Shown here piece after piece: positions 11,110 through 54,066 of a stretch of DNA of 64,000 bases. The position numbers were made by a program, and so were the translations under genes. The notes below the pieces were generated by a model that was given only the letters and a program-made list of their open reading frames with translations, was not told the origin of the DNA and ran no database searches. How positions within the stretch are numbered: the stretch's first letter is position 1; every line of letters starts with the position of its first letter. This DNA is from Cyanodermella asteris (Eukaryota > Ascomycota > Lecanoromycetes > Ostropales > Stictidaceae): assembly GCA_900618795.1 (NCBI GenBank), contig UYJD01000005.1, positions 1,406,522 to 1,470,521 on the forward strand, read 5' to 3'.

Positions 11110-11985
11110 ATTGGCGGCAGGCACGTGCGAAGATAGTCCGTAATGACTGCTGGTAACTAATGGTAAATTTGGAGGTTGTTGAGCAGATGCTGCTTGATTT
11201 CTCGACGGGAAAGTCTTTGAGAGACGAGGCTAGAGCGATCACGGTCTGACGCTATATTGTGTAGGTGCTTATTTGCGCAAGCAGACGACATTCAAGGTTC
11301 TGCACCAGCTGCTTGGAAATACACTTAATGACATGCCAAGACCCCGCTGTGAGAAAGAAAAGAAGATTCCCGCCGGGTCCCGCACGAGGATCGCCTGCGT
11401 CATCCCTGCATACCGCGTCGCTTGGGGGTTCAAGAAGCGCCGCGCCTTCAACCACACCTCGATCAACTGCATGACTGACTACACGATGCACCTGTCAGTG
11501 GCTGCCGACTTGTTGCTCTAGATTAGCTCTAGATTAGCTCTTCAGTAGAGCATCGCGTCTTCGTAGGGCAACACTTCGGAGTCCTTACTAGCAGTCCTGT
11601 CAAATCAGGAAACATTTACCCAGTACTGCTGTCGCGTGTGGCAGCACCCGACTACGATATGCTCGGGAGCTAGCGCACCTGAGGCAGAAACTTCAAATAC
11701 AGCGTCTTTCACAGGTAATTTCTTTTCCATCTTGATTCGTCGGTCGTTGGAAGTTGCTCGAATTTTGTCAGTTTTGCGGCCTGAAAACACGCACTCTTCG
11801 GGCATTTGAATGTCCCGACAATCAGCCTGGGGCCGAAGGCCGCTTCAGAATGTTGACCACACGGGAAATCTTTACGGGGAAAATGTATAAAGAGCTCTAC
11901 CTAGACCCAAGGGCGTTTGTATGGTCTTCTTCAAGCTCCATCCTTCGCGTTTTCAGATTTACCCACCCATACACAAACAAAGATC
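11110..11985. other. Divergent promoter region between LSG1 and a FAD monooxygenase
   Basis: No gene recognised. The right end carries a TATA-like ATGTATAAAGAG near 11884, about 100 bp before the monooxygenase ATG. An 11-bp tandem repeat lies at 11515-11540. Confidence 0.5.
11515..11540. repeat. 11-bp tandem repeat, 2.3 copies
   Basis: GCTCTAGATTA is repeated directly (11515-11525, 11526-11536) and followed by GCTC. Noncoding. Confidence 0.85.
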
Positions 11986-13491
11986 ATGAGCAAGCCTTTT
12001 GATGTCATCGTTGTCGGCGGCGGACCTGTAGGTCTCTTTCTAGCTTGCGAGCTCGGGCTTGCAGGTGTCTCTGTTCTCGTACTCGAACGAGATGTTGACG
12101 ATGATCCTCCCTGGAAGCAAGCGCCACTCGATCGTCGTGGAATAAATACACACTCGATAGAAGCTTTCTACCGCCGTGGTTTGGTGAGCAAGGTGCTCGA
12201 GGGCTCAGAAGACTTACCGCTCTTCCAAAAATCGGACCGATTCCACTTCGCAGGTCATTTCGCCGGTATTGCTTTCGATGGCAACAAGACAGACCTTTCA
12301 AAATGGAAATATCACCTGCCAAGACCTATGCAAATTGCGCCTACGAGACTTTCACATCTCGAGTCGGTGTTCACACAACGCGCAACAGAGCTGGGTGTTC
12401 AAGTCCTCAGAGGCATGGAAGTCACACAGATCGTCGATCAAGGAGATGCAGTTCAGGTCTCAACCAAAAATGACTCATTCATGTGCAGCTACCTTGTAGG
12501 CTGCGATGGAAGCAAAAGCTTGGTGCGAAGGCTTGGTGGATTCAACTTCGTGGGAACCGAGGCCGAATTTACAGGTTACATTGCGAGGTGTGACTTGAAC
12601 AGACCAGACCTCTTGAAGCCCGGCTTCCAGCACAGCGAGCGCGGAATGTACATTTACATGAAGCCTGATACCCTTTACGCCATGGACTTCGACCTGACTT
12701 TCGACCGCACGAAAGAAATTACAAAAGAGCATGTGCAAAGTGTTCTTCAGCGAGTGACTGGCACGGATGTCGCTGTGGACACCTTGCACATCGCCGGATC
12801 ATTTACTGATCGCGCAAAGCAGGTTTCCGAGTACCAGAAGGGGCGGGTATTCCTAGCCGGCGACAGCGCTCACATTCACTCCCCGCTTGGCGCACAAGGA
12901 CTGAACACAGGCCTTGGAGATGCCTTGAATCTTGGATGGAAGCTGGCAGCCACGGTCAAAGGTCGCGCGGCGCCTGGCTTACTCGCCACTTATCACACAG
13001 AAAGACATCCAATAGCGGCCGAGGTGCTCAACTGGACTCGAGCTCAAACGGCTCTCATACGCCCAGACCCTGCTGCTCGTGCCTTATACAAAATCATGAG
13101 CGAGGCGATCGGTTCGGGCGAGGCCGACTACTATCTTGGGCGCATGTGGGGTCTTACGCTGCGTTACGACATTGGTGATGAGCATGACCTTGTAGGCCGC
13201 AGTGTACCGGATTTCGAGATGGACGACAACAGACGACTGGGCCCAAAGCTGCGGAAAGCATCTTTCCAGGTGATTGACTTCACGCAGAACGAAGCCCTTG
13301 AAGAATTCATCCACAGACTCGAGCCTACCGTGGAATACTGTACGACTCATACGACTCAGAATTTTGGTATCAAGGCGCTTGTCGTTCGGCCTGATGGCTT
13401 CGCTGCATGGGCCGCTACGGAGAAGGTCGAGCTGAATGAGGTGAAGACAGCATTGTCTAGATGGTTGAGCTCGCCGCAACTGAGTCAATGA
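11986..13491 (+). CDS. FAD-dependent aromatic-ring monooxygenase (phenol hydroxylase/TfdB-like)
   Basis: 501 aa, no intron; the ATG at 11986 directly precedes the first strand (MSKPFDVIVVGGGPVGL). FAD motifs are complete: GxGxxG as GGGPVG near residues 12-17, the DG motif LVGCDGSKSLVRR near 170, and the GD motif VFLAGDSAHIHSPLGAQG near 290-305 followed by NTGLGDALNLGWKLA. The C-terminal 100 residues resemble the thioredoxin-like extension of phenol hydroxylase-type enzymes (end ALVVRPDGFAAWA). The enzyme should hydroxylate an aromatic or polyketide substrate with NAD(P)H and O2; the substrate is not predictable. Neighbours are housekeeping-like, so a catabolic or detoxifying role is as likely as secondary metabolism. 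No damage visible. Confidence 0.9.
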   Translation: MSKPFDVIVVGGGPVGLFLACELGLAGVSVLVLERDVDDDPPWKQAPLDRRGINTHSIEAFYRRGLVSKVLEGSEDLPLFQKSDRFHFAGHFAGIAFDGNKTDLSKWKYHLPRPMQIAPTRLSHLESVFTQRATELGVQVLRGMEVTQIVDQGDAVQVSTKNDSFMCSYLVGCDGSKSLVRRLGGFNFVGTEAEFTGYIARCDLNRPDLLKPGFQHSERGMYIYMKPDTLYAMDFDLTFDRTKEITKEHVQSVLQRVTGTDVAVDTLHIAGSFTDRAKQVSEYQKGRVFLAGDSAHIHSPLGAQGLNTGLGDALNLGWKLAATVKGRAAPGLLATYHTERHPIAAEVLNWTRAQTALIRPDPAARALYKIMSEAIGSGEADYYLGRMWGLTLRYDIGDEHDLVGRSVPDFEMDDNRRLGPKLRKASFQVIDFTQNEALEEFIHRLEPTVEYCTTHTTQNFGIKALVVRPDGFAAWAATEKVELNEVKTALSRWLSSPQLSQ

Positions 13492-13960
13492 TACGCTTGC
13501 AGGTGCACAAACAGCAGAGCTGGTTTCAGCCGGGAGCTTCGTGACCATGGGATTTTCGGTGGGCACTGAGCCACGACCGTGTTGTAAAATAGCAATGTAA
13601 CCAAAAGCGCAACTCATCCATACAGGAAATAAGACAATGTTTCGCCACTGAGAGTCGCAATCGAAGTCATTCATTGGCTGGTTCAAATCAAAGATCAACG
13701 GTCAGTTCAGTGATATTTTGTCGCTGCGTATCAGAGATTACAACTTCATCAGGGCGGTGGCGAACGTTGCGTGACGTAGATTTGATCCTCAGCGGGAGGC
13801 CTCCCTCCGCCATGGCAGAAAGCCCCATGTCAAACCACCTTAGTAATCAATCAGTGGCGAACTTGTAACATTCAAGTAGTCGCAGGTTGGAGGACGTATC
13901 GGTTGTAGATAGATGCCCATGCACCAAGTCGCGAGACATTTCACCAGACAAGCCGCGAAA
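13492..13960. other. Intergenic, promoter of the TDA3-like gene
   Basis: No gene or repeat recognised. Holds the 3' flank of the FAD monooxygenase and the leader of the downstream oxidoreductase. Confidence 0.55.
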
Positions 13961-15270
13961 ATGGGATCAACTCAACAACCAAAGGAAATCGTGATTATCG
14001 GTAGGCCAATTTCTAGAACTCGCGATACACTCATCAATAACAAAGTTCATCAGGTGGTGGGATCATTGGATGCACGTCCGCATACTTTCTAACAAGGCAT
14101 CCATCCTACGACCCCTCGAAGCACAAAATCACCCTCCTCGAAGCATCCAAAATAGCAGGTGGCGCATCCGGCAAAGCCGGCGGACTCGTCGCTCTATGGG
14201 CATATCCCAAGTGCATTGGTCCCCTCAGCTACAAGCTGCATGCCGAGCTCGCAAAAGAGCACAATGGCGCCGACCGTTGGGGTTTCAGGACCATTCACAC
14301 CGGACAGCTGAATGCCAAAGCCCGCGCCAACATCGCCAGTTCCGACCCAGCGAAGGAGAAAGGCGACCTCTCGTCTCTGCACAAACGGGACGAAAAGGCG
14401 ATGACGAAGCTGAAGGAGGCAGGGCTGCCTGCGGATTTGGATTGGTTCGTTGCAGATAATGTATTTCATTATCAGAGCATGGGTGATCCGACGACGACGG
14501 CACAGGTGCATCCCTTTCAGTTCACGAACAGCATGGCTGAGCTGGCAAGGGAAAAGGGCGTGAACATCGTCGAGGGGGCGCGAGTCACTGATATAGGTCG
14601 CTCAAAGACCGGTGTCGAGTCTGTGACTTACGTACAGGCTGACGGCGAAGAACGGAAGATCGCGGCGACGGATGTGGTTGTGGCGGCAGGACCGTGGACA
14701 AGTCGAGTCTACCCTGCAGCACCAATCTCGGGTATGCGAGCCCACAGCGTGACTATCGAGCCTGCCAGACCAGTCTCAGCGTATGCTTTGTTCGCCGAGA
14801 TTGTCATGCCGAAAGGACGAGGCAAACAGGTCTCGCCGGAAATATACGCTCGACCCAACAATGAAGTCTACGCCTGTGGAGAGGGTGATCAGCTAGTGCC
14901 TCTACCAGATACAACAGTCGATGTCGAGGTCGATGATTCGAGGTGTCAGGAAGTCATCGATCAGGTCAGCTCAATTTCGGATGAGTTGAGATATGGCAAG
15001 GTCACGGCGCGGCAAGCGTGTTACTTGCCGAATGTCAGGGGTGCGGTGGCAGGGCCACTTGTCGGACCTGCTGATGTCAAGGGGCTGTACCTCGCTACTG
15101 GCCATACGTGCTGGGGCATTTCCAATGGTAAGAATCATCTTCAGCGAAAATCCAGACTCTACTGACATTGTTCAGGTCCTGCGACAGGGAAACTGATAAG
15201 CGAATTCGTGTTCGATGGCAAGGCGAAGAGTGCTCGGGTAACGCAATTGGACCCTCGACAGGTGCTGTGA
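13961..15270 (+). CDS. TDA3: TDA3-like FAD-dependent oxidoreductase (DAO fold), three exons
   Basis: Exons 13961-14000, 14054-15127 and 15176-15270, giving 402 aa; introns of 53 and 48 nt with GTAGGC/GTAAGA donors and CAG acceptors. The first intron splits the FAD-binding glycine motif, so that the joined start reads EIVIIGGGIIGCTSAYFLT. It is followed by HKITLLEASKIAGGASGKAGGL, the flavin-site signature of this subgroup. The C-terminal exon carries the second flavin contact region (ATGHTCWGISNGPATGKLI). These features match the D-amino-acid-oxidase-like family that includes yeast Tda3, linked there to late-endosome-to-Golgi recycling; the chemical reaction is not known. A reading that starts inside exon 2 would lack the dinucleotide motif, so the spliced model is preferred. 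Confidence 0.88.
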
Positions 15271-36269: not shown

Positions 36270-39200
36270 ATGAAGCGCGCATTGGCATGGCAGTGGCCAG
36301 CATCGCAACGGACAAGTGTCTTGAGAGCAAGACCAAACAATTTACAATGCCGCGTACTCGTCGGAGCGGTTGTATCTTCTAGATCGTTTGCAACTGGTCG
36401 AGGATCCAGGCAGGCTCCTCGCCGGCAACATGCAAATACTCAAGCATACGAACTGGATAGGGTGGCATGTCGGCAACTACGCTTCGGGAGCACAAGGGTC
36501 ACATGCCCCAGGAATCACAGGAATGATGCGCAGGTGGCACCGGTGAAGGTCTCAACTATCAAGAACGAGACTAGAGGCTTTGCTTCGACAGACAGCAGCT
36601 CTGGAGGCGTTCTTGACCTGCCGAGACTTGACAAGAAATGGCAGCAAGCATGGGTATTTTCACGCGAAAGCTCTCGACATCTAGATGGAAATGCAGCCGA
36701 AACGGACAAGAGACGGAAAGCATACATCCTTCCCATGTTCCCCTATCCGTCCGGAAACTTGCACATGGGGCACATGCGGGTCTATACCATAGCTGACGTG
36801 CTATCTAGATGGAAACAAATGTCCGGTTACAAGGTGCTGAGCCCAATGGGCTGGGACGCATTCGGTCTGCCAGCTGAGAATGCTGCTATCGAGAGAGGCG
36901 TGGAGCCTGCAGCCTGGACAGCGGGAAACATCGTGAGGATGCGGGACTTGCTCAAGGAGATGAACACCGACTTGGACTGGTCAAGAGAGTTTGCCACGTG
37001 CGATCCATCCTTCTACAAGCACACTCAGAAGCTGTTTCTTCTCATGCTTGAGCACGGAATGGCCTACCAGGCGGAGGGTATGGTCAATTGGGACCCAATC
37101 GACAAAACAGTGCTTGCCAACGAGCAGGTGGACAAGAATGGTTTCTCGTGGAGGAGTGGTGCCAAGGTCGAACAAAGGTCACTCAAGCAATGGTATCTTA
37201 GGGTCACTGAATACAAGCAGTCGCTGCTAGACGACCTGGACTTGCTGGCTAGGAATCAACGATGGCCGGAACGAGTATTGGAACAACAGCGCCACTGGAT
37301 CGGACGGTCTGAAGGTGCGAAATTCAAGTTCATGGTCGGCTCTGTTGATCAAAATCCCCTGGATTTCCGACCCATAGAGGTTTTCACTACCCGGCCGGAC
37401 ACTCTACTGGGTGTGCAATTTCTAGCCATTTCTACGTCTCACCCTCTTGTGGTTGCTCGGCTACCCCACGATGCGAATCTCAGGACATTCGTGGAGCAAG
37501 CAGCGAATGCGCCAGCAGATTCCAAGCTGGGATATCAGCTGAATGACGCAGTCGCTGTGAACCCAGCAATCACATTGCCGAAATCACCTGATACCATTTC
37601 AGCTTCGATTCCAGTATTTGTTGCTCCCTATGTTCTTGACAACTACGGCGAAGGGGCCGTGATGGGCGTTCCTGGGCATGATGACCGCGACCATGCGTTC
37701 TGGAGGCTCAATCGTCCTGACCAATCTGTCCTGAGCGTGATTGGACCGGCTGACGGCCAAAGCCCAGCCGTGGAAGGTAGTGCCTTTACACAAGCAGGAA
37801 AACTGCTACCAGTATGTGGTCCATATGCAGGTCTGTCCTCTTCCCAAGCTGGAGCCCAATTCGTTTCACGACTGTCAGCGAAAAAGCTGGGAGAGAAAAG
37901 CGAAACATGGAGGCTTCGAGATTGGCTGATCAGCCGGCAAAGATACTGGGGAACTCCGATCCCCGTGGTTCACTGTGACTCGTGCGGGGTGGTTCCAGTA
38001 CCTGACGATCAGCTGCCAGTGACGCTTCCTGATTTGCCCGGAAAGGCTTTTGCGGGCAAGACGGGAAATCCGCTGGAAAAGGCGGAGGATTGGATCAAAA
38101 CACCCTGTCCGACTTGCCAAAAACCAGCAAGGCGAGACACTGATACCATGGACACCTTCGTCGACTCGTCATGGTACTTTACTCGCTTTCCCGATGTCAA
38201 TAACGGCAAAGAACTTTTCTCCAGGCACAGCGCCGACGCTTCTCTTCCGGTCGATATGTATATTGGTGGCGTAGAGCATGCCATTTTGCACTTGCTTTAC
38301 GCTCGATTTGTATCAAAATTCCTGGCTAATATTGGTCTATGGCCACATGGTAACAAACTATCCGTTCGAGGAGAGCCGTTCGACAACCTAATTACGCAAG
38401 GGATGGTACATGGCAAGACTTATTCCCATCCTGATACTGGACGCTTCCTCCGCCCTGACGAAGTTGACTTGAGCTTTCCTAACGAGCCAAAGATCGCCGG
38501 TACCAAGCTCACCCCGAACTTGAGCTACGAAAAGATGAGCAAGAGCAAGTACAATGGCGTCGATCCAACTTCCCTTATCCACCAATATGGCGCTGACGTT
38601 GTCCGTGCTCATACATTATTCTCGGCGCCTGTTGCTGATGTCTTAGCCTGGGATGATGCGAAAATTGTAGGCTCTTCTCGCTGGCTTAAACGCTTGTGGA
38701 AGCACATTGCCAAAGTCAGCGACAGGCTTGCAGACCATTCTGGAGTTCTCACAGAGTCGAAGGAGGTGCCCTTTTCTGATATGCAAGGTCAAGATCAGCA
38801 ATCGTGGAAGTCTGTTCAGAGTCTTGTCGCTAGTATCAATCGTGCTTACGAAGAGGTCTCTCTGAACACGCTGGTATCGGATCTCATGAAGCTGACTGGG
38901 GAGCTCATCAACAACCCTGCTCACTCCGCGATCGTCGAGTATCAGAGGACTAGTGTCATGTTGAGGGCTTTGGCGCCCGTGGCACCTGCCTTTGCAGAAG
39001 AATGCTGGGAGAAACTACATGCTCACCACCAAATCAGGCGATCCATCTTCAACGCTGCTTTTCCTGTACTCGACCAGGCTGCCGCACTTGCCGAAGAAAC
39101 TCAAACTTGCACAGTCCAGGAGAATGGGAAGTTGCGATTCACGGTGGAGATTCCCATCGCTCCTCAAAACCTGGACAACCCGCACGGATGGGCAGTCGAG

Positions 39201-39308
39201 AAGCTTAAAGCGACCGAGCAAGGCGCCCGTTGGTTCCAAGAGAAAGGCGCATCATGGAAGAGAACCATTGTTGTCCGAGGAGGAAAAGTCATCAACTTTG
39301 TAAGATAG
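36270..39308 (+). CDS. NAM2: Mitochondrial leucyl-tRNA synthetase
   Basis: 1012 aa, no intron. A class Ia synthetase charging mitochondrial tRNA-Leu; yeast Nam2 also helps splice group I introns. The N-terminal 100 residues are Arg/Ser/Gln-rich with few acids (presequence). The catalytic core starts at KWQQAWVF; the HIGH-type motif is PYPSGNLHMGHMRVYTIADV near residues 158-175. The CP1 editing domain runs about 340-540 with the threonine-rich segment FTTRPDTLLG and GVPGHDDRDHAFW. The RLRDWLISRQRYWGTPIP block follows, and the KMSKS motif EKMSKSKYNG lies near residues 753-762. Bacterial/mitochondrial architecture, about 900 residues plus presequence. It converges with the ATP-grasp gene (129 bp between stops) and marks the left border of the mycosporine cluster. 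Confidence 0.96.
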   Translation: MKRALAWQWPASQRTSVLRARPNNLQCRVLVGAVVSSRSFATGRGSRQAPRRQHANTQAYELDRVACRQLRFGSTRVTCPRNHRNDAQVAPVKVSTIKNETRGFASTDSSSGGVLDLPRLDKKWQQAWVFSRESSRHLDGNAAETDKRRKAYILPMFPYPSGNLHMGHMRVYTIADVLSRWKQMSGYKVLSPMGWDAFGLPAENAAIERGVEPAAWTAGNIVRMRDLLKEMNTDLDWSREFATCDPSFYKHTQKLFLLMLEHGMAYQAEGMVNWDPIDKTVLANEQVDKNGFSWRSGAKVEQRSLKQWYLRVTEYKQSLLDDLDLLARNQRWPERVLEQQRHWIGRSEGAKFKFMVGSVDQNPLDFRPIEVFTTRPDTLLGVQFLAISTSHPLVVARLPHDANLRTFVEQAANAPADSKLGYQLNDAVAVNPAITLPKSPDTISASIPVFVAPYVLDNYGEGAVMGVPGHDDRDHAFWRLNRPDQSVLSVIGPADGQSPAVEGSAFTQAGKLLPVCGPYAGLSSSQAGAQFVSRLSAKKLGEKSETWRLRDWLISRQRYWGTPIPVVHCDSCGVVPVPDDQLPVTLPDLPGKAFAGKTGNPLEKAEDWIKTPCPTCQKPARRDTDTMDTFVDSSWYFTRFPDVNNGKELFSRHSADASLPVDMYIGGVEHAILHLLYARFVSKFLANIGLWPHGNKLSVRGEPFDNLITQGMVHGKTYSHPDTGRFLRPDEVDLSFPNEPKIAGTKLTPNLSYEKMSKSKYNGVDPTSLIHQYGADVVRAHTLFSAPVADVLAWDDAKIVGSSRWLKRLWKHIAKVSDRLADHSGVLTESKEVPFSDMQGQDQQSWKSVQSLVASINRAYEEVSLNTLVSDLMKLTGELINNPAHSAIVEYQRTSVMLRALAPVAPAFAEECWEKLHAHHQIRRSIFNAAFPVLDQAAALAEETQTCTVQENGKLRFTVEIPIAPQNLDNPHGWAVEKLKATEQGARWFQEKGASWKRTIVVRGGKVINFVR

Positions 39309-39437
39309 CCGAAATGATCAGAGAGTGTACGATAAGGTGTCTTAATACCGAACATTTATTTCATCAATTTCCAAGATCCTCCGATACGTCTCACGGATGA
39401 CATCAATTTGTGAGACCAGGGCCGTCTCTATTTCACT

Positions 39438-40937
39438 TCAACATCTAAACATCTTTGCAGTGCTCACGTTTACCCTGCTCCACCACTGTCGCTTCCAGAT
39501 TGACGCAACAAACATGCCCGGCCAGTAAACGTGATAAAGCCACCACCAAGGCAAAGGATCCCAAACTTCGTATGTCCCGTCTTTCCAGAAGAGCAGGTGC
39601 TCGATGAAAATCTTGAATCCAGCGATAAGTTTCATCGGTCTCTGTCGCAATAAGAACAAGCGGAGCAATGGCAATAGTACCAGTTCAACGAGATCGTGCC
39701 CGATCCAGTAATAACGTGCAGGATCCTTGGGTGTAAGCACGTTAGCTTTGTGCGGGTGACTGGTGCCATTGGGCTGAGACGGGACAGCCGCTTGCAGATA
39801 GGCGTTGGACATTGGCTTCCCGAGACCGTTGAACAGTACCACGGCCGTGTGGGCCCGAGGATTGCATTCGATTGGAAACAGCAACTGCTCAATGCCTTTT
39901 TCCGTACTCCTCTGATGCACGAGAAAATCAAAACTCAAATGGCCGCTCCAGTCAGCCCCGCTGCGTGCTACGAACTCGGTCGTGAACTTGAGCATCGACT
40001 CGTTTAACGGTGAGTTCGATGGCAGAGCCACGTAGTGCATGAGCAGTTCGGAGCTCTCGCAGGCTGTGAAGGCGACGACTTCGCCCTTGACCACCAAGGC
40101 GTGAGTGCAGTACTCGCTACCTTTGACAAATTCCTGGAGCACCCACGGCTTTGTGTTTGAGATGGGGATCTTGCTGAGATGCGAATACGTCTGCGATAAA
40201 GTTCGTCGAGGAAGAAGGGTCATGTCGCCACGGGCCGAGTCGTCGACGCCGACCGACTTCATGATATACGTCTTCCGCCGCTTCGGGGCCGTGTCCAGGA
40301 TCTTGTGTACCATTGCCCGGGATGTCACGTCGTAGGTCTCCGGTACAGGCAGACCAAGCGATCGAGTGTGCGCAATGAAGCTGCTTTTCTCGTGAAGCAT
40401 GCCAGTGGTTCCGGCGTCATATTGCACAGCGACGCAGCTCGTACGGCGCTCCACGACTTCTTTAGCCTGTCCGTCTTCGACTGCTGAGGCCACGCCGCTG
40501 CAGCTGACCCATAGATCGACGCGCTCGACGGCTACGATTCCAAGCAATTCTTGAGTGTAGAAAGATGCACCATTGACCGGGTCCGGAACCGGAAGACTGT
40601 AGAATCTTTTCAGAGCTCGGGAGAATCGCCCACAAACCGGGACACCGTATGGCTCAAAATCGGCGCCGATGACCGTATGGCCAGCTTCATGAAAGAGTCG
40701 AGCGATTGCAAGCCCTTTTGACATGCCAACTCCAGTGACCAAGACTGTCTTGGGCTGGAACGAAGAATTCTGACGCGCGAGTCGTCGGCGAATGTAGTGG
40801 CGGGGAAACGTCAGGAGCTGGAGGACGTATGTGCACAGCACAGCATAGCTGCTCAGTGGGAGCAAGGTGATGCTGAGCACTATGAGAGCGGCATTCTGGA
40901 GGAAATGGGCAGCAGCCGGAGAGCTTGACGTGAGCAT
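39438..40937 (-). CDS. mysC: ATP-grasp ligase of mycosporine biosynthesis (MysC-like)
   Basis: 499 aa, no intron. By similarity to cyanobacterial MysC it would activate 4-deoxygadusol with ATP and condense it with an amino acid to give a mono-substituted mycosporine. The N-terminus has a strong hydrophobic segment (residues of about 15-43, AALIVLSITLLPLSSYAVL) and a basic stop RRRLARQ, as in MysC. Then come the pre-ATP-grasp fold VLVTGVGMSKGLAIARLFHEAGH and FYSLPVPDP. The ATP-grasp lid/strands are KTYIMKSVGVDDSARGDM and PWVLQEFVKGSEYCTHALV, and the metal-binding end is LLFPIECNPRAHTAVVLF (Glu and Asn ligands). The C-terminus is hydrophobic and Trp-rich (DPLPWWWLYHVYWPGMFVASIW), again as in MysC. 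The O-methyltransferase on the same strand lies 489 bp upstream. The amino acid used cannot be read from sequence. Confidence 0.9.
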   Translation of the reverse strand: MLTSSSPAAAHFLQNAALIVLSITLLPLSSYAVLCTYVLQLLTFPRHYIRRRLARQNSSFQPKTVLVTGVGMSKGLAIARLFHEAGHTVIGADFEPYGVPVCGRFSRALKRFYSLPVPDPVNGASFYTQELLGIVAVERVDLWVSCSGVASAVEDGQAKEVVERRTSCVAVQYDAGTTGMLHEKSSFIAHTRSLGLPVPETYDVTSRAMVHKILDTAPKRRKTYIMKSVGVDDSARGDMTLLPRRTLSQTYSHLSKIPISNTKPWVLQEFVKGSEYCTHALVVKGEVVAFTACESSELLMHYVALPSNSPLNESMLKFTTEFVARSGADWSGHLSFDFLVHQRSTEKGIEQLLFPIECNPRAHTAVVLFNGLGKPMSNAYLQAAVPSQPNGTSHPHKANVLTPKDPARYYWIGHDLVELVLLPLLRLFLLRQRPMKLIAGFKIFIEHLLFWKDGTYEVWDPLPWWWLYHVYWPGMFVASIWKRQWWSRVNVSTAKMFRC

Positions 40938-41426
40938 CCTGTCCTTGGCTTGCGAGCGTCAATTCGGAGTGTGGCGCTTGTTCTATTGACTCGCCATGAG
41001 GATGGAGGGGATTGCGACAGAGCACGATCAGATGTAGTCAATAGAAACGCGATTCGAAAAATGCGCTGGGACTTTCCAAGCTTCAGATGGACTTGTACGA
41101 CATAACGCCAGTGCAAGCAAGATAGCCGATGTGGCAGATGGCGAGGTCGACGAATGAGGCTGGGTGGAGAGAAGGGAGTGAAAGCCGCAGTGAGCTTCTC
41201 GGCGACGTCACTTGCGCACGGACCGCTTGCCTTGTTGAGCACGAAAGGTGTCAGAGGACGTGCGCTTGTAGCTCTACGTTTCTTACGAGATTGAGGCCAA
41301 GTCATGAGATGTAAGCACAAGTGAAGAATGGCTTCGACAATCCGGCTGACCAGCAGTGTGTTCCACTCGAAAACATTTCCCAGCGATGTGCACAAGTGGC
41401 CGGCGAGCACGCGCTTCAAGCCCCCA
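40938..41426. other. Spacer between MysC-like and MysB-like genes
   Basis: Serves as promoter and leader of the ATP-grasp gene and 3' flank of the methyltransferase. A 179-codon minus-strand frame crosses it but has no family resemblance. Confidence 0.5.
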
Positions 41427-42411
41427 TCAACCCTCTACAGCAACACATCGTGTTACTTCTACCCCATCCTGTTAATGAGATGTTAGTGCTGTTTACTTCC
41501 ACCATGCTTCGCGCGCGAATAGCTTCGTTGGCTTACCGGTTCTCCTGTAGGCTCGAAGCTTTTTATGAGCTGCGATTCGTAAACGATGTTTGGGTTCCCT
41601 CTTGCTTCTTCTAGCTTTTCCTCGCCTCGTCGCTTCTGGTACTGGTTCTTCGTCCTATCCACGAAGCCCTCACGACCGTCGTTCTGCTTATCTCCCCTCG
41701 TGAGACTCTCTCTCTTCTGATCTGGCGTGCTTCGGACGTATTTGAGGTATGGAGGGTTGCCTGGGGAGATGACATTGTCCGCCGCCAGGACAGTGCCCTT
41801 GTGTATGAGCCCGAGTTCCTCGCAAAGCTTCAGGTCTGTTGTATAGGCAGGCTTGTAGTGGTCGAGAAACAACATATCGATTTGAGACAGTCGACCCTGG
41901 TCGTGGAGCGTTTTGATCGACTCGGCGCTGCTTCCAACGATGACTTTCGCGAAGCTGCCGAGTCCAGCAAGCTCCAGAAGCGACACTGTCACGGCTGCGA
42001 ACGTCGGGTCCCGTTCAAGACAGAAGTAGTGCTGACCACCAGCTTTCCGTGCGGCGTTGGCGAAGAGAATTGCTGAGTAGCCGACATAGCTCCCCAGCTC
42101 AACCATGAGCTTGGGTTTTGTCTGTTCAATCAATTGAACCACTATGCGCCCCTTCTCAGTCCCGACATTCATCAGATACTTCTGCTTGCGTCCGAAATCG
42201 TCTATGGCCTGAAGGACTTTCTCGGGCTCGCCTCGCACGCTGTCGGAATGGCTGTAGACATAATGAAGCAATGCCACTTCTCTGCCGTCGTCAAACTGTT
42301 GGGCTGATTAGCCAACGACGCTTGCGGCCAGAACTTTGTACATACAAAGCTGGTATTTTCTTCTTTCTGCTGGTATGCTTCGGTCTGATTGAAAGAATTG
42401 TCTGAAGCCAT
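41427..42411 (-). CDS. mysB: O-methyltransferase of mycosporine biosynthesis (MysB-like), three exons
   Basis: Exons 42411-42346, 42295-41537 and 41468-41427, giving 288 aa; introns of 50 and 68 nt. A catechol-OMT-like SAM enzyme expected to methylate demethyl-4-deoxygadusol to 4-deoxygadusol. Start MASDNSFNQTEAYQ; joint TSF-FDDGREVALLHYVYSHSD restores the family's first helix. SAM site VELGSYVGYSAILFA is near residue 75. The COMT-type metal/catalytic residues are kept: DHYK (about 155-158) and ADN (about 184-186), followed by PGNPPYLKYVRS. The last splice replaces a run-on tail with DGVEVTRCVAVEG, the usual end. Residues of about 200-240 are a charged insert (Lys/Glu/Arg) larger than in plant/animal COMT. 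Divergent from the cyclase gene. Confidence 0.9.
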
Positions 42412-44057
42412 GTTCGCGTCGATGCTATCAAGATCCAAGCGCCGTCGCTGTGTTCAAAGCAGGCTGACTTCAATTGCGGAGGCAACCGATCCCGACGCGT
42501 CAAGCTAGGTATTGGAGGATGTGTTCATGGCCGGTTCATCCACAGGAGCAGAAGCACCCTTTCTCGGAGCCGCCTCGTTCCTGTCATGTGTAAGAGTTAT
42601 TTTCGCTGCGACCTTCGGAGTAGAGAGGCTCCCGCATTGGGCTCGTACATGTGCCCCGCAATGAGGCCCTTGTAAATACTCATATCCGAGTGTGATTGGC
42701 GGGCCAAGCTGGATCCCTGTAATGGTGAGCCCATGACTTTTGATGGTGTAGCGCGTGCGAGGCCTGGATTGTATGGTCCACCCAAAAGTTCAGCCCTGAA
42801 CTCAACCGCCAGGGCGGCAGGGATCTTGGCTCAAGCCTGTTTACAGACGCGTCCTTACCCTATCGGGCTAGCTATCCTCTCGACTGCATCCGCGTCCTTG
42901 GGTGTGTGGTGCTTCCTTGACTTCATGACATTCTCTCTTGACAAGGGTGCTCACTGTGGCGCTGAGAATGTGCCCAGCACGCCGTAGTGGCCTGCGTTAT
43001 AATTCGCAAGTGACTCGGAAGCTGAAAGCGCTGTCTCTGCCGATAGTTCCTGGACTCTTGACTGCGAGACGACATTTGTGGGCTGCGACAGGTGTCTCAC
43101 AGAGGCAAGCAAAGGCTAGCGGCGAAAACCTATTATTTACGGTCCTCGCATTCTGTCCAGATGCAGTTGCTGTCTGCGAACCATTCGCTTGACGCGAAGG
43201 AATTAGCTGGACCAGGCACTGCACGTCATCCGAAGGAATGAACAGCAGTCAAGACAGAAGCCGAACTAGGTTGGTAAAAACTCATATCCCACAGCCATTG
43301 AGGTATGCGCTGATACCACTTCGGACCGCGCCCCGCCAATTTTATCAGAGCATTGCGCGGCGTGGTCAAGATCTAAGCCGTCAAGATCGGATCTTGCCAG
43401 ACTGGTGGGAAATGTGTCGACAGTCTTACGAAACTTAGCACCCTGCATCTCTTGTGCCAACTGCCAACCCATACTGTTATTGGATGAAGCAGTGTGGAAT
43501 CGCGGACCGGGGTAACGACTCGATTCCCGCCGTCGACAGCCCCACATGCTGAGTGCCACTCCTCCAAACAACAGGGGTTCTATACTTTTCTCTGCTTCTC
43601 AACTTCCCCCCTCGGCTTGTGGTTTCGTCAGAGATATTGCTCTGGATTTCCAGCCAAAGCCAGCGATTCAAAGCACGTCATCTGTGACTATGCAGGTTCC
43701 ACCATTTCGAGCCGGATCGGCTGTTCAGGTCCGCCTGAACAGAAACAATGACCGTTGCATTTTCACCGTCTAAGCAGGTCGAACCGGTTAGCCATGTTGC
43801 CACAGCTCTCGTGCTCGGGGTACATACACGCCATGCCTGCATTATCACGTTCGTCGGCTCCGGTGGGGCATGAGCTTGAGTCGTCTGCGTACTCCAGCGG
43901 ATCTGCCGTTTATTATTTAACCGAAAATCTCCAAAGAACCGTATAAGACGCGTCTGTTCCACTGTCCCTCACCCGACTATCGCTCTCCCTCCTCCCGAAA
44001 CTTCCCCGTCTGTTCCGCGTCAACTGAACGTCGTTTCCCTTCCTCGCAACTTCCACG
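42412..44057. promoter_or_regulatory. 1.65-kb divergent intergenic region between MysB-like and MysA-like genes
   Basis: Both cluster genes start outward from here, so it probably holds shared control elements. No credible coding frame was found. The right 100 bp are strongly C/T-rich on the plus strand (leader of the cyclase gene), preceded by A/T-rich TTTATTATTTAACC near 43908. Which transcription factors or light-response sites it contains cannot be decided by eye. Confidence 0.55.
43942..43947 (+). promoter_or_regulatory. TATA-like box upstream of the cyclase gene
   Basis: TATAAG lies 110 bp before the ATG at 44058 and ahead of the C/T-rich leader, a usual arrangement in filamentous fungi. 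Position and sequence only; no transcript start is known. Confidence 0.3.
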
Positions 44058-45692
44058 ATGTCTGATCTCAAGGCAACAGTGCAGGAGACCAGCAATGGCT
44101 TCCACGTCGAGGGCTGGGAGAAGATCGAATACGATTTCACCTTCCTGGACGGTGCTTTCAACCCGCAGAACAATCAATTGGCACAGGAGTACCGCAAGTG
44201 GGGCCGAGTACTTGCCGTGATGGATTTCAATGTCTACAACCTCTACGGCAAGCAGATGGAGAACTACTTTAGCCACCACAACCTGGAGCTCAAGGTCCAC
44301 AAGACGAAGATTGGCGAGAAGGCGAAGACAATTCCGACCTTCCTGAGCATTGCTGATTCAATGACCGAATTCGGGATCTACCGCAAAGTATCACCACCAT
44401 CTCGAGCTGTTGCAAGCGGTGGCTAATCAATTCCCAGGAACCCGTTCTGGTCGTCGGCGGAGGCCTGGTTACCGATGTTGCCGGGTAAAAATCACCAAGA
44501 TTGCCATAAGTCCAAGGGCCTCTACCCACCCTTGACATGCAAAGGCTTTTGTCTTGACGAATCCACTGCTAACATGCTTGTCTCTGCAGATTTGCTTGTG
44601 CCGCGTACCGTCGCAACACAAACTTTATTCGTATTCCCACGACTGTCATCGGGCTTATCGATGCTTCGGTGTCGATTAAGGTCGCAGTCAACTACGGCAA
44701 CTACAAGAACCGTCTCGGCGCCTACCACGCGCCCCAGCATACTTTCCTCGACTTCGGCTTTCTGAGGTCGCTGCCCAAGGCACAAATTCGGAATGGGTTT
44801 GCGGAATTGATCAAGATCAGCTCCTGCGCTCACAAGCCGACGTTTGATCTGTTGGACAAGTATTGCGAGGAACTTATCAACACCGCGTTCGGCCGTGCAG
44901 ACGGCGCATCCGACGAAGTGCGCAAGGCGGCCGACCAGATCAACAGAGATGGTATCCATGAGATGTTGAAGCTCGAGACTCCCAATCTGCACGAGATCGG
45001 GCTCGACAGAGTCATCGCATACGGACACACGTGTGTTGCCAAGTGCCTCACATTTGAGACCAACGCTAACACTGCCCAGATGGTCACCGATGCACGAGCT
45101 CGTGCCAGAAACTCCGTTGCGACACGGACATGCCATCTCCATCGACATGGCATACTCCGCGACACTCGCAAACACACGCAAGATGATCTCGGATGCCGAA
45201 TATCATCGTCTCCTGACGCTGTTCTCGCGCGCTGGTCTCTCAATCGATCACCCCCAGTTCGACGAGGACATCCTCGACAAGGGAACAAAGGCTATCCTCA
45301 AGACCCGTGATGGTAAGCTGCGCCTCGCAGTGCCCAACCCCATTGGCAAGTGCGTCTTCCTCAACGACGTTCCGTACGAAGAGTTGGTCGGCGCACTCCG
45401 CCAGCACAAGCAGGTCATGAAGTCGTATCCTCGTAATGGCGCTGGCGTTGAGGCATACGTTGACGCGAGTGACACTGGTTACACTGAGGGGAACGAGGAC
45501 GCCAACGCAGAGCTGGCGCAGGCAGCCAAGGATGCCGGTAGCCTTAATGGCAGTATGAACGGCGCTCACATCAATGGTGGCATTGAGATGAACGGCGATG
45601 CAAATGCTGAGAAGGTTAAGGCCAAGCTGGCGAACGGAACGAACGGACTGACCAACGGTGTCAATGGTTTCACGAATGGTGGAAAGGCTTAA
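44058..45692 (+). CDS. mysA: Demethyl-4-deoxygadusol synthase (sugar-phosphate cyclase, MysA-like), four exons
   Basis: Exons 44058-44387, 44438-44484, 44590-45030 and 45080-45692, giving 476 aa; introns 50, 105 and 49 nt. Member of the dehydroquinate-synthase fold; relatives of this branch cyclise sedoheptulose 7-phosphate to 2-demethyl-4-deoxygadusol. NAD-site motif [21 protein letters not shown] is restored by two splices, then [21 protein letters not shown]. Metal ligands by position: Glu198 (FAELIK), His272 (AYGHTWSP, split by intron 3) and His288 (LRHGHAIS). The [16 protein letters not shown] pair differs from true dehydroquinate synthase (HGE) and fits the DDGS/EEVS branch; moreover shikimate synthesis in fungi uses the AROM protein. 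The last 50 residues are an Asn-Gly-rich low-complexity tail. EEVS-type activity remains an alternative, but the adjacent MysB/MysC genes argue for DDGS. Confidence 0.92.
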
Positions 45693-46496
45693 ATAGTTTA
45701 GCTCGGTGGACGCTAAAAGGGGAGCTAAAACAAAATCACGGTGACAAAAATGTATATCGTAACCCACCATAACACTGTTGCATCACAAGCCTCGATGGGG
45801 CCCATAAGATCTGCATTCCATCGTGCAAGACGCAAATATACAGACTCGAAACAAGCCCTGCACGCCCCACACAGAGCTTAACACGCAAACGTCCAAGATC
45901 GTTGGCTACCCGTCACGCCATGTATCTCGGTGCAAATTTGAAACAGCCTGACGACCGATACACCCACTCATGGTCAAAACCTCAGCCGATCTCTGTCGGG
46001 CAAGTATATAGCGCACTCGGTAACGGCTACAGAGCCTCACCCTCAACCCCCGCGCGAGGCTGAGCTGATGCTCGACTCCAACCACCTCGATGTTTACCGG
46101 TCTGCATCAAAAGGTATCTAAGGATCGCACCTGCTCTCAAGGACAGGCGCCCCCCCCCCCCTCAAAAAAAAAAAGATATGCCAGGCTGGTGATTTCGCTT
46201 CGGCCGGCGTAGCTCCTCGTTTGCGTTGGGTCTAACGCTAGTGCTACAGACTATTCAACGTACTTGGCCTGCAGATCTGATGACGCAGACGAGTAACGCG
46301 GGAGAGCTTCGATGAGCTTGAAATTTATTATTTGTTCAGTGGTCCTGTCGTTTTTATTTCTACTTTTTTTTTTCTGTCGACAAACTTGGATCGTCTTTAT
46401 CGACCGAATCTAGATTACACGGTCTACCAGAGAGAGTCCTGGGGTCATATGTTCGAACAAGATGTGGAACTTTTCAATTGTTTGCTGTTTAGTCAT
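45693..46496. other. 3' flanks of convergent MysA-like and GH20 genes
   Basis: No gene recognised. Contains homopolymer runs (C11 and A12 near 46150-46174, T10 near 46366). Confidence 0.55.
46150..46174. repeat. Adjacent C11 and A12 homopolymers
   Basis: Eleven C at 46150-46160, TC, then twelve A at 46163-46174. Noncoding; run length may be uncertain in the assembly. Confidence 0.85.
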
Positions 46497-48218
46497 CTAC
46501 AGCGTACAATCTCCCTGGTTCTGCAAACACCAAGTCATCGTGACCGGGTTCGCACCAAATCCAAGCGCAACCAAGCGTTCCCTCAGGTCCGCCATCCTCC
46601 TCGTAACACCCTCATCAACCCCCTTGACACCCTTAATTCCACTCCACATAATCTCCGAGCCGGCCAGCGCTCGCGGCCAGACCTTGGAATCCAGATTCAC
46701 CGGGTCCGTCAATTCGTGCCAGATGTGAACCTCGCCACCGTAGAGGTTGTTGATCATTGATTCAGTCAGGTTCGTGCGCGGGTCGTACGAGTACATTTGG
46801 CGCCACGACTTGAGCGGGTTGCAGTAGTCGGTGTACGGCGGCACGATCGCGCCGGTGCCGTCGGCCACGGCGGTCGTGTTCGGGTCCAGCCACTGGCCGT
46901 AGCCGCAATCCATGTACCAGTTGTAGTAGTCGCCGAAGAGGGTTTTGTAGCCTGCACCGGCGACGCGGGCGATGGATTCCTGACCTTGCCATGTCTGGAC
47001 GATTGTGTCGGGGGACAGCGTCAGGTTCCAGGTCACGATCATCTCTTCCCAGACCATGGGCTGGAGACCGGCGTTCTTGATTGTGGTTTGAAGGTGGGTT
47101 TTGAGCTTTTGAATCAGGGGCTGCAGGACGGCTGGGTCGTTGCTCTTCACGCTGGGATCTAAGGCGTAGGCGTTGGCGTTCACTTCGTCACCGCCGGAAT
47201 TGAAACGCTTGCTGTACTTGCTGGTGCGGGGCAGAAGATCGGCGTAGACTGTATCGAAGAACTTGTAGACGTCTGGGTTGTTGAGCTGGATAGATCCACA
47301 TGGAGGCTCTGCGCAGTAGGGTCCCCAGGGCTGAATGTTGAATGCTGTGACGAGGTCTGGATGGCTGTAGGCAACACTAGAAAGATGACCAGGCGAGTCG
47401 ATCTCAATGATCGGCTCAATACCACGCGCGTAAGCATAAGACATGACATCGTCAAGGTCCTCAACGGTCCAGTACAAGTGAGGAGCATAGGCACCCTTTT
47501 CGGCCAGCTCTGGCATGCTGGCGATTTCAATGGGCCATGACTGAGCATCCGTTGCGTGAATGTGAAGCTTGTTGAATTTGGCAAGCTCCATGGCATCGAT
47601 CTGACGTTTGACACTGCTTGGAGGCTCCCAGTTGCGGGCAATGTCGAAATTGAATCCACGGTAGGAATAGGCCGGTCTGTCTTCCACGTGGACCGGCACA
47701 AGGTTCGTGTAGATCATGTTCGACTGGCTGCACTTGTAAAAGAGCTGAAGCAGAGATGTCAAGCCATGCATGGCGCCCTGTGGTGTGGAAGACTGAATGA
47801 CCGCCGTTCCATCGCTCTTGACGTCCAATACGTACGCCTCTTCAGGATCCGTCGTATTGAAATGAGTCTTGAGCATAGGCTGCGTCTGCTCCACGGTGAT
47901 GCTCTTGAGGTATGCGCCGGAAGCGTTTTGTGCGGGTTCATAGTTTGCGCCGCGTGGATAGAACTTCCATGGCACGAAGGCGGCCTTGCCAACATTCTGC
48001 TTGAAACGATCGAATGCGCCGCTGATCAACTCAGCATCTGAAGTTGTGTTTGAGGCGCGCTTGGAGGCGCTCAATGGCTTGTAAGAAGTCTGAACGGAGG
48101 AAGGGTCAAGCCACAAAACGCCCGTCCCGTTGGTCTGCACATTGGGCGCCGGCCAGATGGCTGATACTGAGGAAATCAGGGCCAGGCCGGCAAGGATTGA
48201 AGAGGTGGGAAAGCGCAT
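46497..48218 (-). CDS. Secreted beta-N-acetylhexosaminidase (GH20)
   Basis: 573 aa, no intron; the ATG at 48218 gives a signal peptide (MRFPTSSILAGLALISSVSA) and is preferred over an in-frame extension to 48368. Removes terminal GlcNAc/GalNAc, mainly in chitin recycling together with chitinases. An N-terminal zincin-like domain (about 20-195) is followed by the TIM barrel starting at PAYSYRGFNFDIARNW. The catalytic Asp-Glu pair is in FNSGGDEVNANAY (about residue 347). Sugar-stacking tryptophans are in PMVWEEMIVTW, IVQTWQG and YYNWYMDCGYGQW. Several N-glycosylation sequons are present. The C-terminus GEVHIWHELTDPVNLDSKVWPRALAGSEIMW is family-typical. Convergent with the cyclase gene, forming the right border of the mycosporine cluster. 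Confidence 0.95.
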   Translation of the reverse strand: MRFPTSSILAGLALISSVSAIWPAPNVQTNGTGVLWLDPSSVQTSYKPLSASKRASNTTSDAELISGAFDRFKQNVGKAAFVPWKFYPRGANYEPAQNASGAYLKSITVEQTQPMLKTHFNTTDPEEAYVLDVKSDGTAVIQSSTPQGAMHGLTSLLQLFYKCSQSNMIYTNLVPVHVEDRPAYSYRGFNFDIARNWEPPSSVKRQIDAMELAKFNKLHIHATDAQSWPIEIASMPELAEKGAYAPHLYWTVEDLDDVMSYAYARGIEPIIEIDSPGHLSSVAYSHPDLVTAFNIQPWGPYCAEPPCGSIQLNNPDVYKFFDTVYADLLPRTSKYSKRFNSGGDEVNANAYALDPSVKSNDPAVLQPLIQKLKTHLQTTIKNAGLQPMVWEEMIVTWNLTLSPDTIVQTWQGQESIARVAGAGYKTLFGDYYNWYMDCGYGQWLDPNTTAVADGTGAIVPPYTDYCNPLKSWRQMYSYDPRTNLTESMINNLYGGEVHIWHELTDPVNLDSKVWPRALAGSEIMWSGIKGVKGVDEGVTRRMADLRERLVALGFGANPVTMTWCLQNQGDCTL

Positions 48219-49775
48219 GTTGTCGCAGGTCAATGTGGGTTGTGAGCTAAGAGCTGAGCACAGCTTGCGGGGCAAGAAAGGAATATGAGAGCAGTCAAAG
48301 CTATAAAAGAAAGGCAACAGTGGGGAATGGAAGCTCTGGCAGAAGCGTGGAAGGGGAGGGTCCAACATGCAGCAACGGCATCGGTTGACAGCTACCTCTT
48401 ATAGCTACCTGGCCACCACGCTGGCATCGCTACCTAGTCACCGATTTTGTCAATAGGGTTTTCCGCCGGACGTACGACAGGGCGTCGCCTGAAGAGATTG
48501 CGATAAATCTGCCCAGACGTCCGAATTTGCGGCTCGCTCCTGACGAGATGGCAGTTTGATCGGTCGGTGCGACGGCGTTTGAGAGCAGAAGCAAGCTCGA
48601 GGGTGCAACGGGGGTGGATTTCCCTTGATCTCGTGTCTTCTGCCCAGCAAGGTTTCCCGGCAGCAGGTGATCATCCAGGGCCAACCAGAGATGAAGGATG
48701 TCGGAGCTGGAGCTGTGAACCTGCAGGATGCACGGTGGAAGTGGCTGACCGTCAGCATTCAAAATATGGATATGATCGCCAACTGGAGATGCGGGCAGGC
48801 CAATCAGTCGGCTCGCCCAGCTGCGGCACGGTCACGTCGTACACGGTGCAAGCAAGCTTCGACAAGAGCGTGGAAGGATCCCGGTTGCAATGACAGACTC
48901 CAGCCGACTACAAGTATGAAGTAAGGAACTTTGCAATTAGGGACCGTGTTGCATTTGACGCAGTGCGTGCTGGAGATTACCGGTAGAAAAGACCGTTTTT
49001 GGTCGTCAGAAACAAATCATATCGCCAATCACCAAAATTCACCCATTGCGAAGCTCAATTATCCAAAGGCATCAAACGATCAACTAGACAATTGCCGGTA
49101 CACATCCGAAGCCTCGTCGAGTATACAGTCCGACTTCAGTACTTCACGGTGATCCCATCTATCTATTAAAAGCTTCTACAGACTCATTCGGTATCAGTCG
49201 ACATGCTGCCCGCAGCATCGATCGCTACGAGGCAAGCAGAACCTTGCCACGGGGAATGCTCGGCCTGCACTTCAACACGGTTCCGTCGAGGAGATGTTTC
49301 ACATTTCGCTAAGGTCGCGTGAGCTCCAACGGACTCAGACATGACTTCAACCGCGCCCATTTCCTCACCATCTCGCAAATCACAGTCGCTGCAGATCAAG
49401 CTCAAGTATGTCGTCCAGTGTTCACATTTCAGGCTATATACAAGCGTGACCCATCCGATCCCATATCAATCCTATCCTCATCAAATACATAAACGCCATG
49501 ACCATGCATAACGAGCGTCTCTCTTCGGAAGCATGTACGTGCGCCAGTCTCTGATCCGAGCTGGCATCAACCTCTATCATAGCGAATGTCCTCCGTCATC
49601 AAGTATGCCTGCCGTCGGGGGTATAATGCATAGACTCCTCGATCGTCGTGGCATGGTTGTGGAAATGCACGTCGGGTGCGCGGCGGCGAGCCCGGTGCTG
49701 CAGAGCCATGGCTGCTTAGCTACGGCTTGTTGCCTTTTTATTATTATTTTTGCCGTCTCGTATCGGACGGTTAGC
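48219..49775. other. Intergenic, GH20 promoter and CAP-gene 3' flank
   Basis: 1.5 kb without a recognisable gene. Frames of up to 110 codons exist on both strands near 48430-48920 but show no domain and overlap each other. Confidence 0.5.
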
Positions 49776-52630: not shown

Positions 52631-54066
52631 CTATGCCAGCGGCAGCTTCTCATGCAGCCACTTCTTTCCTCCCTCCCCATACTCGCCCGCCGTCTGCCCG
52701 CTTCCGCTGATAAGATACTTGTAGATCATTAGCCCCTCCAGGCCCACCGGGCCTCGGGCATGAATCTTGTTGGTACTAACCCCAACCTCAGTTCCGAAGC
52801 CGAACCTCATCCCATCTGCCATTCGCGTGCTGGCGTTCCAGAACGAACACGCGTTGTCAACCCCAGCCTGGAAACGCCGAGCCACCGCCTCGTTCTGCGT
52901 CAAGATGGCGTCTGTGTGCTTGCTGCCGTGGGCGTTGATATGCGCTATGGCGAGGTCCACGGCATCGCTTGCCCCGCCTGCGCTCTTGGGCACTGTCTTG
53001 ATGGCGATTATGGTATCCAGGAACTCGGTATCGTAGTCGCTTTCGACCGATTCCTGGAGGAGGACTGCTTCGTTCTTGGGGAGTATACTAGCCAAGGCGG
53101 TTCGTGAGGCGACATCGCACCGCAGAGAGACACCCTTTCCCAGCAACGCCGAGGCGACTGCAGGCAGGATCGTGGTAAGTGCAGCTTCGTCGACTAGGAG
53201 CGTCTCGACTGCATTGCAAGCAGCCGTATACCCGAGCTTTGCGTCCAGCAGAATCCTTACCGCCATATCTTTCTCCGCATCTTCGCAGAGATAGATGCTG
53301 CAGAGACCGTCCGCATGACCGAGGACGGGAATTTTGGTGTTGTTCTTGATGTATGTTACGAGCTCGTTGGAGCCTCGGGGAATAACCAGATCAACATGCT
53401 TGTCCAGCTTCAACAGCTCGGGAATGACATCTCTGGTGGTTACAAGCTGAATTGCACCGTTTGGTACGGTGGTGTTCTCGAGTGCTTGTGAGATGATTTG
53501 GGAGATGGCAATAAATGATTCCGTCGATTCCTTTCCTCCCTTCAAGATGGCAGCATTGCCTGATTTGATGGCCAAACTGGCAATATTCGCAATGACCTCA
53601 GGTCTCGCCTCGAATATGATCAAAAGCACACCAATGGGACACGTGACCCTCTCAAGGTCCAGTCCTTGATCGAGGCGCGTACGAAGAGTAACCTTGCCGA
53701 CTGGTGTGAAGTCAGTAATCCGATGCTAAGAAGCAAAAGCTATAGGAGGTTGTTAATTCACTCACCTGGGTCCTCCAACTCCCTGACGTCTAGTATGCCC
53801 TGAAGCATGTCCTCATATTTTCCCGGCCTCGCCAAATCTAATCGTTTGAGGACTGCCTGGCTGAGCGTCCCTTCCTTCGTCGCCTGCGTAGCCGCAACCA
53901 AATCTCGTGCATTCGCCTCCAATATCTGACCTTTGGCAGCTTTCAAAGCTTCATGAATGGCTGTAAGTGCGTCGTTCCGATCTTTCGACGGTAGCACAGC
54001 CAGTGACCGGGCTGAAATACTCGCCGCTGTGCCGACCTGTAGCGGTGTTCCAGAGGAAAGTGACAT
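52631..54066 (-). CDS. PRO2: Gamma-glutamyl phosphate reductase, two exons
   Basis: Exons 54066-53766 and 53700-52631, giving 456 aa; 65-nt intron (GTGAGT..CCAG). NADPH-dependent second step of proline synthesis from glutamate. The joint ELEDP-VGKVTLRTRLDQGL restores the family sequence. CPIGVLLIIFEARPEVIANIASLAIKSGNAAILKGG is the aldehyde-dehydrogenase-fold cofactor region, VIPRGSNELV a signature, and the catalytic Cys lies in TAACNAVETLLV (about residue 250). The C-terminal DNACSFWNASTRMADGMRFGFGTEVGVSTNKIHARGPVGLEGL is canonical. Length fits yeast Pro2. Confidence 0.96.

Follow-up and report, generated by a model that had tools for sequence, protein, structure and literature searches.

Three adjacent genes at positions 39438-45692 of a 64,000-nucleotide stretch of the Cyanodermella asteris genome (contig UYJD01000005.1; the whole stretch is called the window) raise the question of whether this fungus carries a mycosporine gene cluster, and how such a cluster would relate to its bacterial and fungal counterparts. 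A first, sequence-only reading had proposed a cluster fed by sedoheptulose 7-phosphate and homologous to the cyanobacterial trio for mycosporine-glycine. The locus was re-analyzed in the context of the genome (28.5 Mb, 25 contigs) and is very probably a fungal mycosporine gene cluster, because its layout and protein sizes match those of the Phaffia rhodozyma cluster, and because the single-copy cyclase and ligase genes lie side by side. The features, in coordinates of the window, are as follows.

44058..45692, plus strand: DDGS, assigned as desmethyl-4-deoxygadusol synthase from gene model, PDB, tree and motifs; 476 aa; four exons (44058-44387, 44438-44484, 44590-45030, and 45080-45692 including the stop)
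42412..44057, no strand: intergenic region DDGS/OMT; 1,646 bp between divergent genes, the presumed site of both promoters
41427..42411, minus strand: OMT, assigned as O-methyltransferase of the catechol O-methyltransferase (COMT) type from gene model, families, PDB and trees; 288 aa; three exons (42411-42346, 42295-41537, 41468-41427)
39438..40937, minus strand: ATPG, MysC-like putative ATP-grasp ligase, from MysC homology and fold; 499 aa, single exon, with a hydrophobic N-terminal helix

All three genes lie at the coordinates given in the first reading, and their frames are intact. The splice models of OMT and DDGS were built on frames, splice signals and homology; all five introns are GT-AG introns of 49-105 nt (50 and 68 nt in OMT; 50, 105 and 49 nt in DDGS), and the AYGHTWSP motif of DDGS is present only after the 49-nt intron has been spliced out. 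An alternative 3' splice site of OMT, 8 nt ahead of the chosen acceptor, was ruled out since it breaks the frame. The genes are adjacent within less than 6.3 kb, as in fungal MYC clusters, with DDGS divergent from OMT and ATPG in the Phaffia-type layout. ATPG has a single match genome-wide, and the DHQ_synthase family has two, DDGS and an apparent dehydroquinate synthase (DHQS) gene on contig C15; chance is therefore ruled out as an explanation of the trio.

The MYC cluster of P. rhodozyma is described with DDGS opposite OMT and ATPG, an intergenic region of 1,568 bp and proteins of 477, 284 and 500 aa (PMC10057719), compared with 1,646 bp and 476, 288 and 499 aa here. According to the same source, deletion of single genes or of the whole cluster abolishes mycosporines, the cDNAs of two genes give 4-deoxygadusol in Saccharomyces cerevisiae and those of three give mycosporine-glutaminol, and a glucosyl step is said to be encoded outside the cluster. 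The likeness is one of layout (three genes in the same order) and sizes; the Phaffia DDGS, OMT and ATPG genes have 14, 7 and 6 exons versus 4, 3 and 1 here. The locus is thus a further case of the known fungal mycosporine trio. The inverted cyclase gene, to which the first reading had drawn attention, is real, and the cyanobacterial gene order is kept, but the inversion is not peculiar to this locus, since the functionally proven Phaffia cluster shares it. Among ascomycetes, adjacent genes of Aspergillus clavatus (acla_55850/55840/55830) and A. nidulans (an6403.2/an6402.2) are tabulated with clusters for mycosporine-like amino acids (MAA), no product being given in that table, by which alone they were compared (PMC10384724). 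Mycosporine-like clusters of Hypoxylaceae are mentioned under NRPS-like (nonribosomal peptide synthetase-like) genes in PMC8403587, and PMC4974774 reports no such cluster from its Colletotrichum genomes.

By family membership and active-site motifs, DDGS would convert sedoheptulose 7-phosphate to desmethyl-4-deoxygadusol, in line with the substrate that the first reading had proposed. OMT would methylate this product to 4-deoxygadusol, the equivalent step being proven for the Phaffia trio. ATPG would then activate 4-deoxygadusol with ATP and join an amino compound to it, to give an oxo-mycosporine absorbing near 310 nm. Neither an NRPS nor a second ligase was recognized directly beside the three genes, which makes the aminocyclohexenone the probable end point of the pathway. 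The locus adds a fungal mycosporine cluster with clean gene models, and such clusters allow mycosporines to be tested as fungal UV protection, a role that a 2024 paper treats as undecided in the black fungus Knufia petricola (PMC11567843).

Ligase and amino partner

ATPG carries the IECNPRAH motif and the hydrophobic ends noted at first reading, visible as Kyte-Doolittle segments (residues 8-26 and 412-430) and as predicted helices (7-43, 412-430 and 462-481). In NCBIfam it matches a family titled only "hypothetical protein" (E 7e-60; 203 bits, under the cut-off of 406), and its sequence matches in the PDB (short-chain dehydrogenases and similar, E 0.0027 or worse) were judged to be due to chance. 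An AlphaFold model (mean pLDDT 84, pTM 0.87) was compared with known structures; the best 50 of 209 matches (E 0.001 or better) are all known as ATP-grasp enzymes, including PylC and the amino acid ligase RizA, with modest TM-scores of 0.38-0.47 when normalized by the query. The ATP-grasp assignment comes from this predicted fold, as the sequence families give none.

The relation to MysC was examined in 60 bacterial DDGS loci of cyanobacteria and actinobacteria, which had been found by scanning with a pair of peptide patterns. In all 60, the DDGS gene is followed downstream by a MysC homologue on its own strand, and ATPG aligns with MysC over its full length, N-terminal hydrophobic stretch included. 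Ten whole genomes, chosen out of those of the 60 loci, were searched as well and coordinates compared by hand: the best ATPG match adjoins the DDGS gene in each, and the further matches in three of them are ~90-112 bits weaker. The ECNPR motif is found in 59 of the 60 bacterial MysC frames (the exception, L035, is cut by a contig end), and in 51 frames a hydrophobic N-terminal stretch begins no later than residue 90; over-long start calls account for at least three of the misses, and a broken or short frame for one. Judged on these frames, the hydrophobic N-terminus is a trait common to MysC proteins. ATPG groups with MysC in the tree, although its row is so long (5.1 changes per column) that its position inside MysC means little, and not with unrelated ATP-grasp enzymes, the grouping that the first reading had named as evidence against itself. 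By alignment and model, ATPG is a full-length MysC relative with a predicted ATP-grasp fold.

The most likely amino partner, with about an even chance, would be glutaminol or another amino alcohol, by analogy with Phaffia, rather than glycine. The mycosporine-glycine to which the first reading had pointed is thus a poor guide to the product, that of the proven fungal trio being mycosporine-glutaminol. Somewhat short of an even chance is a product in which the ligase of the same cluster attaches an amino acid (glycine, alanine, serine or glutamine), any alcohol being made later by a reductase encoded elsewhere. This would accord with the relation of ATPG to MysC, described as the cyanobacterial enzyme that adds an amino acid (PMC7826186), with the listing of mycosporine-alanine, -serine and -glutamine for fungi (PMC10384724), and with our finding that no dedicated reductase was recognized beside the genes among the scanned frames. 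However, the sole proven fungal trio yields mycosporine-glutaminol even in S. cerevisiae, likewise without a clustered reductase (PMC10057719), and such a gene is therefore not needed in the cluster.

Cyclase and ring precursor

Against the PDB, DDGS scored 494 bits with 5tpr, 232 bits with 4p53, and 111 bits or less with dehydroquinate synthases. The entry 5tpr, labelled 3-dehydroquinate synthase in its PDB file, adjoins the MysA of a Nostoc MAA locus in our tree (support 100), and we take it to be the Anabaena DDGS. Entry 4P53 is described as ValA (PMC4426668), a 2-epi-5-epi-valiolone synthase (EEVS) whose active-site motifs read GHSFSP and HGEA versus GHTWSP and HGHA in the fungal protein. 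The frame caller recovered MysA from all of the 60 bacterial loci except L037 and L059; GHTWSP occurs in all 58 of these proteins and HGHA in 53, the remaining five reading HGHG, HGHS or HGQA. A quick tree of 38 rows, which took in 32 of the 60 bacterial loci, places the fungal DDGS among 33 DDGS rows (support 99), apart from the rows for one EEVS and for three DHQS, the DHQS including the C15 gene of the same genome. The fungal protein joins the cyanobacteria at 81% in this quick tree with its one long fungal row, which does not settle a cyanobacterial or actinobacterial placement.

On account of the PDB scores, tree and GHTWSP/HGHA motifs, the cyclase is assigned as a desmethyl-4-deoxygadusol synthase, neither an EEVS nor a DHQS; a place in either of those clades had been named in the first reading as an outcome that would speak against it. 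An EEVS making a valiolone- or gadusol-type compound is accordingly very unlikely as an explanation of the locus: the two enzymes are related and have a common substrate, and the fungal gene is called EEVS-like in some annotations (as given in PMC5103461), but DDGS is 262 bits nearer to 5tpr than to ValA, its motifs are not those of ValA, the tree sets it apart (from a single EEVS row), and the locus has no MT-Ox-like gene. Just as improbable is a ring drawn from the shikimate pathway (3-dehydroquinate), with some other role for the trio, as tracer work in Trichothecium roseum would have it (described in PMC3083659), given that the genome encodes a DHQS elsewhere, on contig C15, and that the mycosporines of Phaffia are reported to require the three genes (PMC10057719).

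The C-terminal tail of DDGS (~75 residues, window about 45257-45692) is Asn-Gly-rich and extends past the stretch aligned with 5tpr. Viral contigs were also scanned for relatives of the cyclase, and none of the 63 pattern matches was confirmed.

Methyltransferase and descent of the cluster

OMT scores above the cut-offs of PF01596 and PF13578 and carries FLDHYK and AADN, which contain the DHYK and ADN of the first reading; their D, K, D and N align with those of COMT. Its nearest solved relatives are catechol O-methyltransferases such as mammalian COMT (5zy5), which make up the top 27 of 48 PDB matches (127-146 bits), the other 21 scoring 57 bits or less; unlike the COMT gene, OMT is part of a mycosporine cluster, and catechol activity is not expected. 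A bacterial MysB (L010, one of the 60), in contrast, scored 128 bits with the bacterial O-methyltransferase 3cbg, and, among its best 60 of 74 matches, 47 bits or less with the COMT entries matched by OMT. A clean split between COMT and MysB is countered by 2avd, which is labelled catechol-O-methyltransferase and scored 111 bits with this MysB; this entry, presumably a caffeoyl-type protein with a COMT domain, is absent from the 48 PDB matches of the fungal OMT.

The bacterial loci resemble the fungal cluster in their related cyclase (50-56% identity) and ligase (28-33%) and in the mysA-mysB-mysC gene order, and differ in having the cyclase and ligase genes on one strand and in the middle gene: the stretch downstream of the bacterial DDGS holds a D-A/V-DK motif (DADK type) in 60/60 loci and DH(Y/W)K in 0/60, though more distant clusters might carry a COMT-type enzyme. 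OMT finds a match at E 1e-6 in 26 of the 60 loci (best 61 bits), and MysB is its best match in six of the ten whole bacterial genomes, not in the other four. A closer paralogue lies in the same fungal genome (C13:962920-963528; 43% identity, 149 bits); it reads DHVED where OMT has DHYK, so that the DH.K lysine is missing.

A quick tree of 74 rows joined OMT, the C13 paralogue and three COMT from the PDB (support 91), followed by two bacterial proteins, L068 and L082, from outside the DDGS loci (genomes G005 and G006; 97). In a careful tree of 28 of these rows, without L068 and L082, the COMT group received 100/100, MysB did not form one side of a branch, and the bootstrap had not settled. A second careful tree, of 35 rows, took in all ten non-MysB bacterial hits from the 74-row tree; it separated COMT plus L068 and L082 (98/100) from MysB plus the other bacterial O-methyltransferases (98/100), and here MysB does form one side of a branch. 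Forcing OMT together with 18 MysB was rejected in both careful trees, by 83 log units (approximately unbiased (AU) test, p 0.0004; 28 rows) and 75 log units (AU p 9e-6; 35 rows); the trees have long branches throughout, according to a program warning, and one fungal cluster row each. On sequence criteria, OMT is of the COMT type and not an orthologue of MysB. The homology with the cyanobacterial trio that the first reading had proposed thus holds for the cyclase and the ligase, and fails for the methyltransferase.

This mismatch also bears on the function of the cluster: with OMT not of the MysB type found in bacterial clusters, its presumed substrate is less directly supported. Together with the lack of a Pfam family for ATPG, the identity of just 28-33% between ATPG and 24 MysC, and the older tracer work that, through a review (PMC3083659), derives the fungal ring from 3-dehydroquinate, this weighs against a mycosporine pathway at the locus.

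We lean slightly towards a chimeric descent of the mycosporine cluster, in which cyclase and ligase are members of the bacterial mysA/mysC lineage, whereas the mysB position was filled by a methyltransferase taken from a COMT lineage, probably of eukaryotes. The shared gene order may then be a relic of in-place replacement after transfer, or the result of convergent re-assembly, and methylation to 4-deoxygadusol would have evolved at least twice. The place of L068 and L082 on the COMT side weakens this reading, and a bacterial COMT-like source of OMT may be considered. The COMT type may extend to fungi in general, since two Naganishia papers list, for mycosporine synthesis, a catechol O-methyltransferase, so that the fungal mycosporine enzyme already bears the COMT label in print. 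If it is general, the first and last enzymes of the fungal pathway would be bacterial-like and the middle one COMT-like, with the gene order still that of bacteria. A limited literature search found no statement of a COMT replacing MysB in fungi, which does not establish its absence from print. The mismatch is a warning against hunting fungal clusters with MysB profiles, and it turns the origin of the fungal pathway into a question of phylogeny.

Surroundings of the cluster

A frame for leucyl-tRNA synthetase and a GH20 hexosaminidase flank the cluster; they are the housekeeping neighbours that the first reading had named. No Rfam match was found across window 38000-48500, the DDGS/OMT intergenic region included. 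That region holds a perfect palindrome, AAGATCGGATCTT, at 43383-43395; as a candidate regulator site it is suggestive at most, as its loose pattern reached three matches in 16 of 100 shuffles.

A frame of the aldehyde dehydrogenase family at 52634-53725 (minus strand), ~7 kb from DDGS, resembles by eye glutamate-5-semialdehyde dehydrogenase, and probably serves proline synthesis and is unrelated to the cluster. Further away, a frame for a flavin aromatic-ring hydroxylase lies close to one for an FAD-dependent oxidoreductase (11905-15162), and a gene for mitoribosomal bL27m in another part of the window weakly points to a filamentous ascomycete, with 116 bits to 6ywe, 84 to 3j6b and 76 to 5mrc, which we take to be from Neurospora (6ywe) and Saccharomyces (3j6b and 5mrc).

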